Shown here piece after piece: positions 10,528 to 43,263 of a DNA stretch of 46,222 nucleotides. Under the pieces are notes generated by a model. The model was not told the DNA's origin, made no database searches, and saw only the letters and a list, made by a program, of their open reading frames with translations. Position 1 is the stretch's first letter. Each line of letters starts with the position of its first letter. The DNA lies in IMG/VR virus record IMGVR_UViG_3300005253_000033, positions 1 through 46,222 of that record. The stretch is one strand, 5' to 3'. The position numbers were made by a program, and so were the translations under genes. Source of the DNA: a virus.

Positions 10528-11597
10528 TAGGTAATCGCCTCCACCGCCGAGAGTCCGATGCCGTAAACCTGCGCCCGCCCCACACTCCATCGGGCCGTAT
10601 TGCTCGCTAGACGAAACGTGCCCACCGGATTCACGGTAAAGATTCGAGACGCGTCCTCATGGGGCACCCGAAGATTGGGCCAGACGGTAATCGGGGCCAG
10701 ACCGTCGGCATCCGAGTTAACCTGTTCCAATACCTTATAGAGTCGTTGATCGGTCAGTTCGTCGTCCAATGATGCGCCCCACATATCAATTGGCCCCTCA
10801 GCTACAACCCAAGTCAAACCTGCACCAATAAAAAAACGTAACTCGGTATCTCCTGATACGAACGTACCACTCACAAAGAATTCTGTCCAAGTCGTAGTGA
10901 CTGTAATCGTATTGGTTCCTCTCGTCGTATCACCTTGATTTCTTACTGAGATAGTTATGTCAAAACTACCAGAAGCGGCCTTCAGCCAAACTCGCGCAAT
11001 GAATGTACGATTCGGAATCAATGGCAAACCACTCGTGATAGCTTGCCGAATCCAAGCATTGGTAGCTCCGCCGTCGGGTGTCACACGTTCCGCCTCGGTG
11101 ACGCCGTTCGGGGCAACGATAGTATTAGTAGACGAGGTACATTCATTCTTCAACCAAGTTGCATCATTGAATTCGTTTACCTTGATGAGGTAGTTATGTC
11201 CTACCTGAATATAGTCACCGGGCAATAGAATCCCGTTGATAGATGGGGTCCAACCGAAGGTGGCTATCGTATTTACAGGACTGGTATGCGCCCCGTCGAC
11301 CCCCGGGTTACCCCCACCCGAACCCTGAGGTATCTTATTGGCGAAATCCCCCAACAGAAATTTATTTTCCTTGCCGTTGAGCGATAGAAGAAAGGTCACC
11401 CAGGCCTCAGCCTCGTCCCGCTGCATCGGCGGAATACTTAACCCCATCTGCCATCGCTGGCCCTGGCCAACCTGCACCTGTTCCTGAAGGGTAAACGGTG
11501 AGAGGGTAGAACCCACTACCGATTGACCTACCAGTTCCGCTCGGATAATTCCGTTCCCAGGCGTGGGGGGAAGTACCCTTGGAAAAATAATTGCCAT
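10527..11597 (-). CDS. Distal tail protein with inserted carbohydrate-binding-like domain
   Basis: A 356-residue protein. Residues 1-134 and 286-356 together read as one conserved phage minor-tail protein of about 210 residues; the strand GDYIQVG should continue directly to RLYKVLEQVN. Between them, residues about 135-285 form a beta-sandwich-like domain with carbohydrate-binding-module features (ARVWLKAASG, TITVTTTWTEF, WGASLDD). The inserted stretch is also richer in A/T than its surroundings. The insert probably displays a sugar-binding domain on the tail tip. Family of the core is judged from pattern only. Confidence 0.65.
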   Translation of the reverse strand: MAIIFPRVLPPTPGNGIIRAELVGQSVVGSTLSPFTLQEQVQVGQGQRWQMGLSIPPMQRDEAEAWVTFLLSLNGKENKFLLGDFANKIPQGSGGGNPGVDGAHTSPVNTIATFGWTPSINGILLPGDYIQVGHNYLIKVNEFNDATWLKNECTSSTNTIVAPNGVTEAERVTPDGGATNAWIRQAITSGLPLIPNRTFIARVWLKAASGSFDITISVRNQGDTTRGTNTITVTTTWTEFFVSGTFVSGDTELRFFIGAGLTWVVAEGPIDMWGASLDDELTDQRLYKVLEQVNSDADGLAPITVWPNLRVPHEDASRIFTVNPVGTFRLASNTARWSVGRAQVYGIGLSAVEAIT

Positions 11598-41511: not shown

Positions 41512-41859
41512 ATGGTACAAAATGGTAACCAAGCGGAGGCAAGGAATATGACAGCCCTAGAAATAGTTAAGACATTCAACAAACAGGTACAAGGAATTCA
41601 CTGTATCATTGCGAGAAAGGCCAGGAAAGAGCATTCTTGTTCAGCCCACTCATCTCCCACGTGTCCATATAGAATCCAAAAGGGCGAGGCATACCTAGAG
41701 AAAAAGTTTGGCAGTTTTTATAGTCAAGTAATTCTCCGATATCATCCGCTCTGCTACCTAGCTGGACATTGCCATAAAAATGAGATACGTCTTCACCGCT
41801 TTTTACTTACTGGGATACCCAGCAGTTTGCCACTGATTCCCCTATTCCCTGAATCTTAG
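41512..41859 (+). CDS. Small Cys/His-rich, possibly zinc-binding protein
   Basis: A 115-residue protein. Cys and His are grouped in residues 42-90 (CSAHSSPTC, then RYHPLCYLAGHC), with RIQKGEAYLEKKF between, a layout like PARP-type zinc fingers. AAGGAG lies upstream of the ATG; a TTG two codons earlier is an alternative. Confidence 0.65.
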   Translation: MVQNGNQAEARNMTALEIVKTFNKQVQGIHCIIARKARKEHSCSAHSSPTCPYRIQKGEAYLEKKFGSFYSQVILRYHPLCYLAGHCHKNEIRLHRFLLTGIPSSLPLIPLFPES

Positions 41860-41886: not shown

Positions 41887-42135
41887 ATGGCACAAAGAAA
41901 AAGAGCTAGCAGTAAAAGATTGGAAAGGTTACAGGCGGTTCGGCGTCAGGTGTCGAACTGCTGCCTCTCGAAGTTCGACCACGTTTTTATCGGGGCCTGC
42001 ATTTCAGGGATGAATGAAAAACAGTTTGAAAGATGTCTGCGGGTTGCGGTCAAGCAGAATGAAGAGGTGGTTGTGATGGTTCAAAGGGCCATCGATAACT
42101 TCTATCTGGATGAAGTAAAAAAAGAGGTTAATTAG
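41887..42135 (+). CDS. Small basic protein, 82 aa
   Basis: Same start context as the preceding gene (AAGGAGATTGAAAATGG). Basic N-terminus with three Cys. Its TAG stop provides the first base of a hammerhead-like element. No family recognised. Confidence 0.65.
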   Translation: MAQRKRASSKRLERLQAVRRQVSNCCLSKFDHVFIGACISGMNEKQFERCLRVAVKQNEEVVVMVQRAIDNFYLDEVKKEVN

Positions 42136-42186
42136 CCCGAAACTCCCGTAAGGGAGTCTGGCCGTTAGGCGGTCACTGAAGAGGGC
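42135..42186 (+). ncRNA. Type II hammerhead ribozyme, copy 1
   Basis: A 52-nt element with every consensus part in type II order. Stem II 5' strand GCCC (42135-42138) is followed by GAAA (42139-42142). Stem III ACTCCC/GGGAGT (42142-42147 with 42152-42157) has a GTAA tetraloop. U-C ends at 42158, after which cleavage is expected. Stem I TGGCCG/CGGTCA (42159-42164 with 42170-42175) follows, then CTGAAGA (42176-42182), and stem II closes with GGGC (42183-42186). The ATG of the next gene is 3 bases later, so stem II overlaps its ribosome binding site. Confidence 0.85.
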
Positions 42187-42189
42187 AGC

Positions 42190-42414
42190 ATGTTCAAACC
42201 TATGAAACGACGGGAAATGGTCAAGCGATGCAAAGGGCTTACTATGGGGTGTTGGTGGTCGTCAAAGGCTTTCCCTAAACCAAATCCGAATTGGCCAAGG
42301 ATAGCTGATGAATTACGGGGTATGAAGGAACATCCATATGTACCCTCAGACCTACAGGAACTAATCCTATTTGCAGAGGCTCAATCGAAGGTCCGAGTGT
42401 TAATCACTCACTGA
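42190..42414 (+). CDS. Small basic protein, 74 aa
   Basis: Starts 3 bases after the first hammerhead-like element, using GAGGG in that element as ribosome binding site. Basic, with one WW pair and no recognised family. Confidence 0.6.
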   Translation: MFKPMKRREMVKRCKGLTMGCWWSSKAFPKPNPNWPRIADELRGMKEHPYVPSDLQELILFAEAQSKVRVLITH

Positions 42415-42420
42415 AGAGGG
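42391..42420 (+). ncRNA. Partial hammerhead-like element
   Basis: Contains GTC, a stem I-like hairpin GAGTG/CACTC (42395-42399 with 42405-42409) and CTGAAGA (42411-42417) followed by GGG, as in the full copies. No GAAA plus stem III is present in the right place. It overlaps the stop of the preceding gene. Probably a remnant or half-copy. Confidence 0.35.
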
Positions 42421-42427
42421 TAACACA

Positions 42428-42679
42428 ATGAAAGTTAACGTAACCATTGATTTCCCATCCTTAGATCGGAAGATTGTCGCTTTCCACTACGGTGATGATG
42501 GCGAAGAGGCCAACAGAAACACCTTGCAATACTTTATTAAACAGGAAGTAGAGGATGGCTTGGAATTCCTGGCAAATGACTATCATAATATAAGTGTTGA
42601 AGGGAAAGTTATTCCACTACGGGAAAAGGCCAAAGATCGGTTTGAAAATGTTCCGACCATCAAAGTCTCAGATATTTAA
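42428..42679 (+). CDS. Small acidic protein, 83 aa
   Basis: GAAGAGGG upstream serves as ribosome binding site and is shared with the partial hammerhead-like element. Beta strand at the start (VNVTIDFPSL), acidic centre. No family recognised. Confidence 0.6.
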   Translation: MKVNVTIDFPSLDRKIVAFHYGDDGEEANRNTLQYFIKQEVEDGLEFLANDYHNISVEGKVIPLREKAKDRFENVPTIKVSDI

Positions 42680-42689
42680 GGGGGACAAC

Positions 42690-42872
42690 ATGGAACAAAT
42701 TAGATCAAGAAAGCACATTGAATGGCGCATCTGCTACCGGATTGCACGGCAAGAGTTAGGTGACAGACCAATCAAGGGCATTCACAAGGGCCTTCATTTT
42801 GCACAGTTTTATTGCCCCAGGTTGCTACAAGTTGCCAGGCGGATTGCGGCTGTTGAAGTAGCAGAGAGTTAG
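42690..42872 (+). CDS. Small basic protein, 60 aa
   Basis: AAGGGGG lies before the ATG at 42690; a longer frame from 42594 overlaps the preceding gene and is not supported. Basic and helical. Its TAG stop again supplies the first base of a hammerhead-like element. Confidence 0.6.
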   Translation: MEQIRSRKHIEWRICYRIARQELGDRPIKGIHKGLHFAQFYCPRLLQVARRIAAVEVAES

Positions 42873-42923
42873 CCCGAAACCCTCCTCCGAGGGTCCGGCC
42901 GTTGAGCGGTCGCCGATGAGGGC
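42872..42923 (+). ncRNA. Type II hammerhead-like element, copy 2
   Basis: Also 52 nt with the same layout: GCCC, GAAA (42876-42879), stem III ACCCTC/GAGGGT (42879-42884 with 42889-42894), U-C ending at 42895, stem I CGGCCG/CGGTCG (42896-42901 with 42907-42912), core CCGATGA (42913-42919), GGGC. Three base pairs differ from copy 1 and each change is compensated. The core has C where U4 is expected, so cleavage may be weak. Confidence 0.75.
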
Positions 42924-42957
42924 AATGTCGGAAACAAGAAAAAGGAGAATCAAAATC

Positions 42958-43263
42958 ATGGCAGCCAAAAAAAAGGAAACCAAAAAAACAGAAAAGGGTA
43001 AGGCCAAGAAGGTCTCTACCCCCCGAGGAAATACCTATGAATTCACGGGCAAGAAGTTTGCCAAGGAGTTCCGGGTCAAGACCCAACCGGCCTTGATTGC
43101 CGCCGCCCTTCAGACGGCTAAGCAAGCTACGGCTAAACAGCTCACCGCGAAGGTCGGTGGGGCATTCAAACTGAATGAGAAGAGCACGCAAAACTGCGTG
43201 GCCTTCTACCTGAACCGGTGGAAAAACTCGGGTCACATTCGGTTTGCCAAAAAGGCCGCCTAA
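42958..43263 (+). CDS. Basic protein with C-terminal winged-helix-like part
   Basis: A 101-residue protein. The N-terminus is very Lys-rich. The C-terminal half (TQNCVAFYLNRWKNSGHIRFAKK) resembles the end of the larger gene at 43358 (VVKFYLWRWAKDGNVH). AAAGGAG precedes the ATG at 42958; an in-frame ATG at 42925, directly after the second hammerhead-like element, would add 11 residues. A DNA-binding role is likely. Confidence 0.65.
   Translation: MAAKKKETKKTEKGKAKKVSTPRGNTYEFTGKKFAKEFRVKTQPALIAAALQTAKQATAKQLTAKVGGAFKLNEKSTQNCVAFYLNRWKNSGHIRFAKKAA

Follow-up and report, generated by a model that had tools for sequence, protein, structure and literature searches.

Type II hammerhead ribozymes at stop codons in a tailed phage, one with the probable Shine-Dalgarno sequence of the next gene in its core

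Background

Type II hammerhead ribozymes have been described from bacteria and prophages (Rfam family RF02276; Perreault et al. 2011, PMC3088659), and the two elements analysed here resemble them in architecture, catalytic core, the GUC cleavage site and their clustering between small orphan phage genes. That study had already reported the type II class, its clusters around phage genes, the natural replacement of U4 by C (U4C) and the idea that the ribozymes process messages, and it showed that tandem hammerheads from phage-like operons cleave in vitro, the Agrobacterium tumefaciens set doing so in Escherichia coli as well (PMC3088659). In 2017, the role of hammerheads in phages and bacteria was described as an open question (PMC6155905). 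Compared with the published type II consensus (PMC3088659), both of our copies have a stem I of the short-loop class (G-UNANG-C), apparently lack the pseudoknot and fall below the Rfam cut-off. In contrast to the published type II hammerheads, copy 1 also appears to hold the Shine-Dalgarno (SD) sequence of the next gene in its core.

Two further systems are close in other respects. In the HHphage variant of haloviruses HF1 and HF2, a hammerhead likewise lies just 5' of a phage gene, with 13 nt between it and the start codon, and a 5' end has been mapped near the cleavage site (PMC3088659). HHphage, however, is a core variant from viruses of high salt and stands at the first gene of the transcript, whereas the copies in our window lie between genes. 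Synthetic SD-masking switches, namely the hammerhead of Wieland and Hartig (PMC5052635, PMC10381313) and a twister ribozyme (PMC5052635), are, as outlined in those sources, an established design in which the SD is paired within the ribozyme and freed by cleavage, which turns translation on. As far as the same accounts describe them, these switches are engineered and carry the SD in an added stem extension, whereas in copy 1, a natural element, the SD coincides with nucleotides of the catalytic core. In the open-access literature that we searched, neither a natural SD-embedded arrangement nor stop-codon phasing came to light, and we regard the novelty of these two regularities as provisional. 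The ribozyme class is a known one; its placement is unusual.

The phage record and its genes

The window, that is, the whole stretch of DNA analysed (46,222 nt), is the complete 46.2-kb virus record IMGVR_UViG_3300005253_000033. It comes from a tailed phage, as shown by recognisable genes for terminase, portal, head protease, tape measure, tail fibre, DNA polymerase and primase. Between 41.5 and 43.3 kb, 3' of a gene for a UvrD-type helicase, small orphan genes follow one another on the plus strand. Functional clues were sought for the genes flanking the elements, with no convincing match to a Pfam or PHROG family, and no terminators were found between the genes of the region. A close relative of this phage was sought by DNA and by neighbouring proteins, and none was found: at the DNA level the region has no relatives among annotated phages, the search with neighbouring proteins returned only helicases about 30% identical in other contigs, and the protein search with the gene 3' of copy 2 returned no relatives. 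The features discussed below are as follows.

41887..42135, plus strand: gene upstream of copy 1 (open reading frame, no family match); the G of its TAG stop is a base of stem II
42135..42186, plus strand: type II hammerhead ribozyme copy 1, 52 nt (descriptor, minimum free energy fold, covariance model)
42158..42159, plus strand: predicted cleavage site of copy 1, after C17 (hammerhead numbering from the sequence)
42181..42184, plus strand: GAGG in copy 1 (G8, A9, G10.1, G10.2), from the sequence the sole plausible SD for ATG 42190, spacing 5
42190..42414, plus strand: gene downstream of copy 1, 74-aa orphan (open reading frame, no family match)
42383..42423, plus strand: putative remnant of a hammerhead, lacking stem III (covariance model R1 at 17.5 bits, E 0.009; 13-nt identity to copy 1)
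42428..42679, plus strand: gene with the GAGG of the remnant as its SD, 83-aa orphan (open reading frame, no family match)
42690..42872, plus strand: gene upstream of copy 2 (no family match); the G of its TAG stop is a base of stem II
42872..42923, plus strand: type II hammerhead ribozyme copy 2, 52 nt, core CCGAUGA with U4C (descriptor with one core mismatch, covariance model)
42895..42896, plus strand: predicted cleavage site of copy 2 (hammerhead numbering; reduced activity expected)
42942..42947, plus strand: AAGGAG, the likelier SD for the gene after copy 2 (sequence; the motif is also found ahead of the genes at 41512 and 41887)
42958..43263, plus strand: gene downstream of copy 2, 101-aa orphan; in-frame ATGs also at 42916 and 42925

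Two type II hammerheads

Both elements follow the helix order of a type II hammerhead (open stem II, GAAA, stem III hairpin, UH, stem I hairpin, CUGANGA and the closing strand of stem II), copy 2 with U4C. Copy 1 reads GCCC-GAAA-CUCCC-GUAA-GGGAG-U-C-UGGCCG-UUAGG-CGGUCA-CUGAAGA-GGGC, which resolves into stem II (GCCC/GGGC), GAAA, stem III (ACUCCC-GUAA-GGGAGU), C17, a 17-nt stem I hairpin (UGGCCG-UUAGG-CGGUCA) and the core CUGAAGA; all invariant core nucleotides are present. Copy 2 has the same layout: stem II is again GCCC and GGGC, and between its strands come GAAA, a stem III hairpin, UC, a stem I hairpin of 17 nt and CCGAUGA. The minimum free energy structure of copy 1, folded alone, is the hammerhead secondary structure (-23.6 kcal/mol, z -2.7; equalled by 2 of 200 shuffles), and copy 2, when excised, folds as a hammerhead too, its z being weaker (-1.35).

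Of the 52 positions, 13 differ between the copies. Six of these are in stems, where they make up exactly three doubly compensated pairs, one in stem I and two in stem III, and all pairs stay intact. When sets of 13 substitutions were drawn at random 400,000 times, all pairs were kept in 111 sets, and only 18 of the sets also contained at least three double changes. A descriptor made of the strict core and three helices recovers copy 1; relaxed by one core mismatch, it recovers copy 2 as well. On reversed controls it gave no match, either with the strict core in 1.19 Mb of fetched loci or with one core mismatch in 2.96 Mb of strand (both strands), and 1 of 1650 scrambled inserts passed. A covariance model, R1, built on 21 elements of identical geometry from other phages with the window left out, gave 68.2 bits (E 1.3e-17) for copy 1 and 57.2 bits (E 2.2e-14) for copy 2. 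A third match followed at 42383-42423 (17.5 bits, E 0.009), and the remaining hits, from E 0.42, were noise. Across 23 sequences, double-sided changes were seen in 12 of 16 pairs, a figure matched by none of 500 shuffles and due in part to construction, as the set had been chosen by pairing.

We conclude that both elements are almost certainly hammerheads, by descent or design. The first-pass annotation, made from the letters of the window, is borne out on the presence of two 52-nt elements with full anatomy at 42135-42186 and 42872-42923, for which the descriptor and the independent covariance model agree, and on the three compensated pairs, the perfect core of copy 1 and the C at U4 of copy 2. 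It had also correctly placed the start of each element on the last base of a stop codon, 42135 and 42872 being the first bases of stem II. Its predicted cleavage positions, after 42158 and 42895, agree with hammerhead numbering, and the hairpin that it expected at the 5' end of the downstream product would be stem I.

Relatives in other phages

Pattern scans were run over 2.9 million viral contigs. They required GAAAC, GUC and GAGG, and the counts apply to elements with these motifs. At least 175 distinct elements in at least 115 loci, the two of the window included, passed the descriptor, with up to 11 in a single contig (L033). Among the matches listed, 40 of the 57 intervals between neighbouring elements are no longer than 700 nt, and 34 are occupied to at least 70% by one reading frame. 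A match in Pseudomonas phage ZC03 proved to be just a half-match, GAAA plus stem III. Pattern matches with CTGAGGAGG that lack stem I (L109, L110) were discarded as chance at ordinary SDs; in these, three cases in two contigs, GAAAC, a hairpin and GUC are followed by CUGAGGAGG as the SD.

Two tertiary classes were seen. In the short-loop class, which accounts for 81 of the 173 listed elements outside the window, the stem I hairpin measures 17 nt, its loop is G-UNANG-C and the tail consists of purines; in the other, longer loops are complementary to the 3' tail, which is the pseudoknot of Perreault et al. (PMC3088659). With their 17-nt stem I hairpins, the window copies belong to the short-loop class. 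The loop and tail of copy 1 (UUAGG, AG) fit the consensus of that class, whereas those of copy 2 (UUGAG, AA) depart from it. U4C is a natural variant, found in 15 of 181 phage elements among the matches listed, partly because it was searched for; contig L033 has U4C copies alongside perfect ones.

The covariance search with the Rfam type II model, which the first-pass annotation had proposed as a check, formally failed: with RF02276 (Hammerhead_II), copy 2 scored 23.8 bits against a gathering score of 37, and copy 1 was unlisted. Other short-loop elements score about 25-31 bits, also below the cut-off, whereas pseudoknot-type elements are often above it. The low score is therefore a limit of the model, not a defect of the elements, and since the model puts the short-loop class below its cut-off, counts of phage hammerheads are likely too low.

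Placement at upstream stop codons

An element was counted as abutting a stop codon when an upstream frame of at least 60 codons ended between -4 and +1 nt from the first base of stem II. This is the case for 117 of the 175 listed phage elements, as against 2.2% of random positions. The exact phasing of both window copies, in which stop codon and stem II share a single base, recurs in 41 of the 175 (random expectation, 0.3%), and the stop is TAG in 33 of these 41. When the gap between stop and SD is considered, 99 of 125 listed elements hug the stop, where even placement would put 42. Because they do so despite room towards the SD, the elements are associated more closely with the end of the gene before them than with the start of the gene that follows, and compact phage genomes may account for part of the effect. 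Among the 175 listed elements the rule is abutment on the upstream stop codon, not use as a ribosome-binding site.

The Shine-Dalgarno sequence in the core

According to the first-pass annotation, the GAGGG of each copy serves the next gene. For copy 1 this holds as read from the sequence: it is a clear SD-embedded case, with GAGG at 42181-42184, ATG at 42190 and no other SD. GAGG alone is weak evidence for an SD, since the core dictates G8-A9-G10.1 and hence always yields GAG. The calculated cost of opening the SD of copy 1, considering secondary structure only, falls from 3.9 kcal/mol before cleavage to 0.6 kcal/mol after it; in six other embedded cases the change on cleavage was mixed, with no consistent drop.

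For copy 2 the same claim probably fails. Its inner GAGG is only 3 nt from ATG 42925, and AAGGAG at 42942 is better placed, 10 nt upstream of ATG 42958 as at the other genes of the phage, so copy 2 was judged an unlikely supplier of an SD and ATG 42958, served by a separate AAGGAG, is the probable start of the gene. In wider context copy 2 prefers an alternative fold, in which a hairpin CCGAU/GUCGG competes with the core. U4C lowers activity considerably in vitro, yet has supported viroid infectivity (PMC3088659). Given U4C and the competing hairpin, cleavage of copy 2 should be slow or reduced.

The third match of model R1, at 42383-42423, retains CGAA, CUGAAGA and GAGGG, together with a stem I of 5 bp and a 5-nt loop (GAGUG-UUAAU-CACUC) in the geometry of the two copies. 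A 13-nt stretch is identical to copy 1, which occurred in 3 of 20,000 shuffles, and its GAGG lies 8 nt upstream of ATG 42428. We infer that this is a dead hammerhead of which the SD half has been kept: having lost stem III it would be unable to cleave, and it would persist as an SD.

Gene starts in the relatives were assigned by a simple rule. On that basis, 138 of the 175 listed elements have their best SD downstream of the ribozyme, and only 7 have it overlapping the ribozyme. Dedicated scans, with GAGG set 6, 8 or 13 nt ahead of an ATG, yielded at least 11, at least 20 and at least 7 real hammerheads with an open frame, respectively, and by this broader count the SD-embedded arrangement occurs in at least 35 elements in at least 28 contigs. 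The use of hammerheads at ribosome-binding sites that the first-pass annotation had singled out is thus a real minority arrangement and not a rule of the class; SD use as the general role of these ribozymes was rejected because most elements have a separate SD. Core position N7 is free, and G there gives GAGGAGG. It is G in 4 of 33 embedded elements and in 1 of 188 other listed GAGG elements (p = 0.0019), a post hoc and provisional association. The sole non-embedded element with G at N7 (L448) likewise has an ATG close by, at 5 nt, which opens a short frame. In a separate 4.8-kb contig (L018), there are four hammerheads, each with GAGGU and then an ATG at SD distance, so that every ribozyme seems to carry the next SD.

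Proposed mechanism and alternatives

We propose that the two type II hammerheads probably cut a polycistronic phage message right after the stop codons of two genes, and that the core of copy 1 serves as an SD. Copy 1, with its complete core, very likely self-cleaves. It would do so after C42158 in the interval between two ribosomes, once the terminating one has departed, since until then its footprint on the stop codon would hide GAAA and the 5' strand of stem II. This would leave the upstream message with a 2',3'-cyclic phosphate on a terminal stem III hairpin; the downstream one would begin with a 5'-OH and the stem I hairpin. Ribosome binding and catalysis in copy 1 would be mutually exclusive because G8, A9, G10.1 and G10.2 serve both, and cleavage would let go of the opposing strand of stem II, freeing the SD for ATG 42190. 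Copy 2, with U4C and the competing hairpin, would cut more slowly or fail to cut, and its gene probably relies on a separate SD.

Our more specific reading is tentative. In a minority of elements that includes copy 1, the core may double as the next ribosome-binding site, with catalysis and the 30S subunit competing for four nucleotides, cleavage switching the gene on irreversibly and N7 tuned to G. Control of the translation of the 42190 gene by cleavage is, on its own, a possibility that falls short of probable. An unrelated fold offers a parallel, in that the reaction of a ligand-controlled splicing ribozyme likewise makes a ribosome-binding site usable. If cleavage does gate translation, phages hold natural counterparts of the SD-masking ribozyme switches engineered by synthetic biologists. 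Two regularities are directly testable: the position flush on the upstream stop, and the minority with the next SD in the catalytic core.

The strongest alternative is that the ribozymes merely process the message into gene-length mRNAs, as was proposed in 2011, the SD of copy 1 being accidental and translation free of control by cleavage. The separate downstream SD of 138 of the 175 listed elements speaks for this account, G8-A9-G10.1 is fixed by catalysis in any case, and gene-flanking clusters are known (PMC3088659). Against it, G at N7, the sole core change that strengthens the SD, is concentrated in SD-embedded elements, the putative dead remnant keeps exactly the SD half, and copy 1 has no other SD. 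We consider simple processing quite possible, if somewhat doubtful as the whole explanation. It is unlikely that the elements are decaying passengers without present function in this phage. A U4C copy with a competing hairpin and a remnant without stem III, beside a single perfect copy, do look like decay, but the copies differ by three compensated pairs and no broken one, and U4C copies recur in other phages.

Excision of a 737-nt three-gene RNA (42159-42895) by the pair, followed by circularisation by an RtcB-type ligase, is highly improbable. Two co-oriented elements bracket complete genes, and the predicted 5'-OH and cyclic-phosphate ends would suit RtcB, as such ends are its substrates. 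However, copy 2 is probably weak, the elements of other arrays usually bracket single genes whose lengths vary widely, and when Perreault et al. examined tandem hammerheads for spliced or circular products, none came to light (PMC3088659). The reading of the elements as chance hairpins resembling a hammerhead, for which one could cite the shortness of the motif and the Rfam score below the model's own cut-off, is already refuted by the empty reversed controls, the single pass among the scrambled inserts and the E values of the independent covariance model. Cleavage of the message at stop codons, with an SD in the core of copy 1, is the reading that we retain.

Further observations on phage arrays

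In six of the contigs (L171, L181, L191, L193, L201 and L208), the tail 3' of stem II, for example GAGGGCAGUUUCCCU (GAGGCAGGUUCCU if stem II is GGC), has the potential to fold into a small hairpin. This hairpin would use the 3' strand of stem II and so exclude the ribozyme, and it seems to covary with stem II. Core variants stand beside perfect copies in the same phage at position 5532 on the minus strand of L013 and at position 11040 on the minus strand of L020 (C3U and A9C), a hint that graded activities may coexist within one array. In Streptomyces phage R4 (NC_019414.1, 41776-49461; L323, L349), the Rfam model gives nine type II hammerhead matches, and a cultured phage with about nine elements offers a laboratory model. 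Three of these matches lie under the tiny annotated genes gp60.1, gp67.1 and gp75.1, which are probably false genes called over ribozymes.
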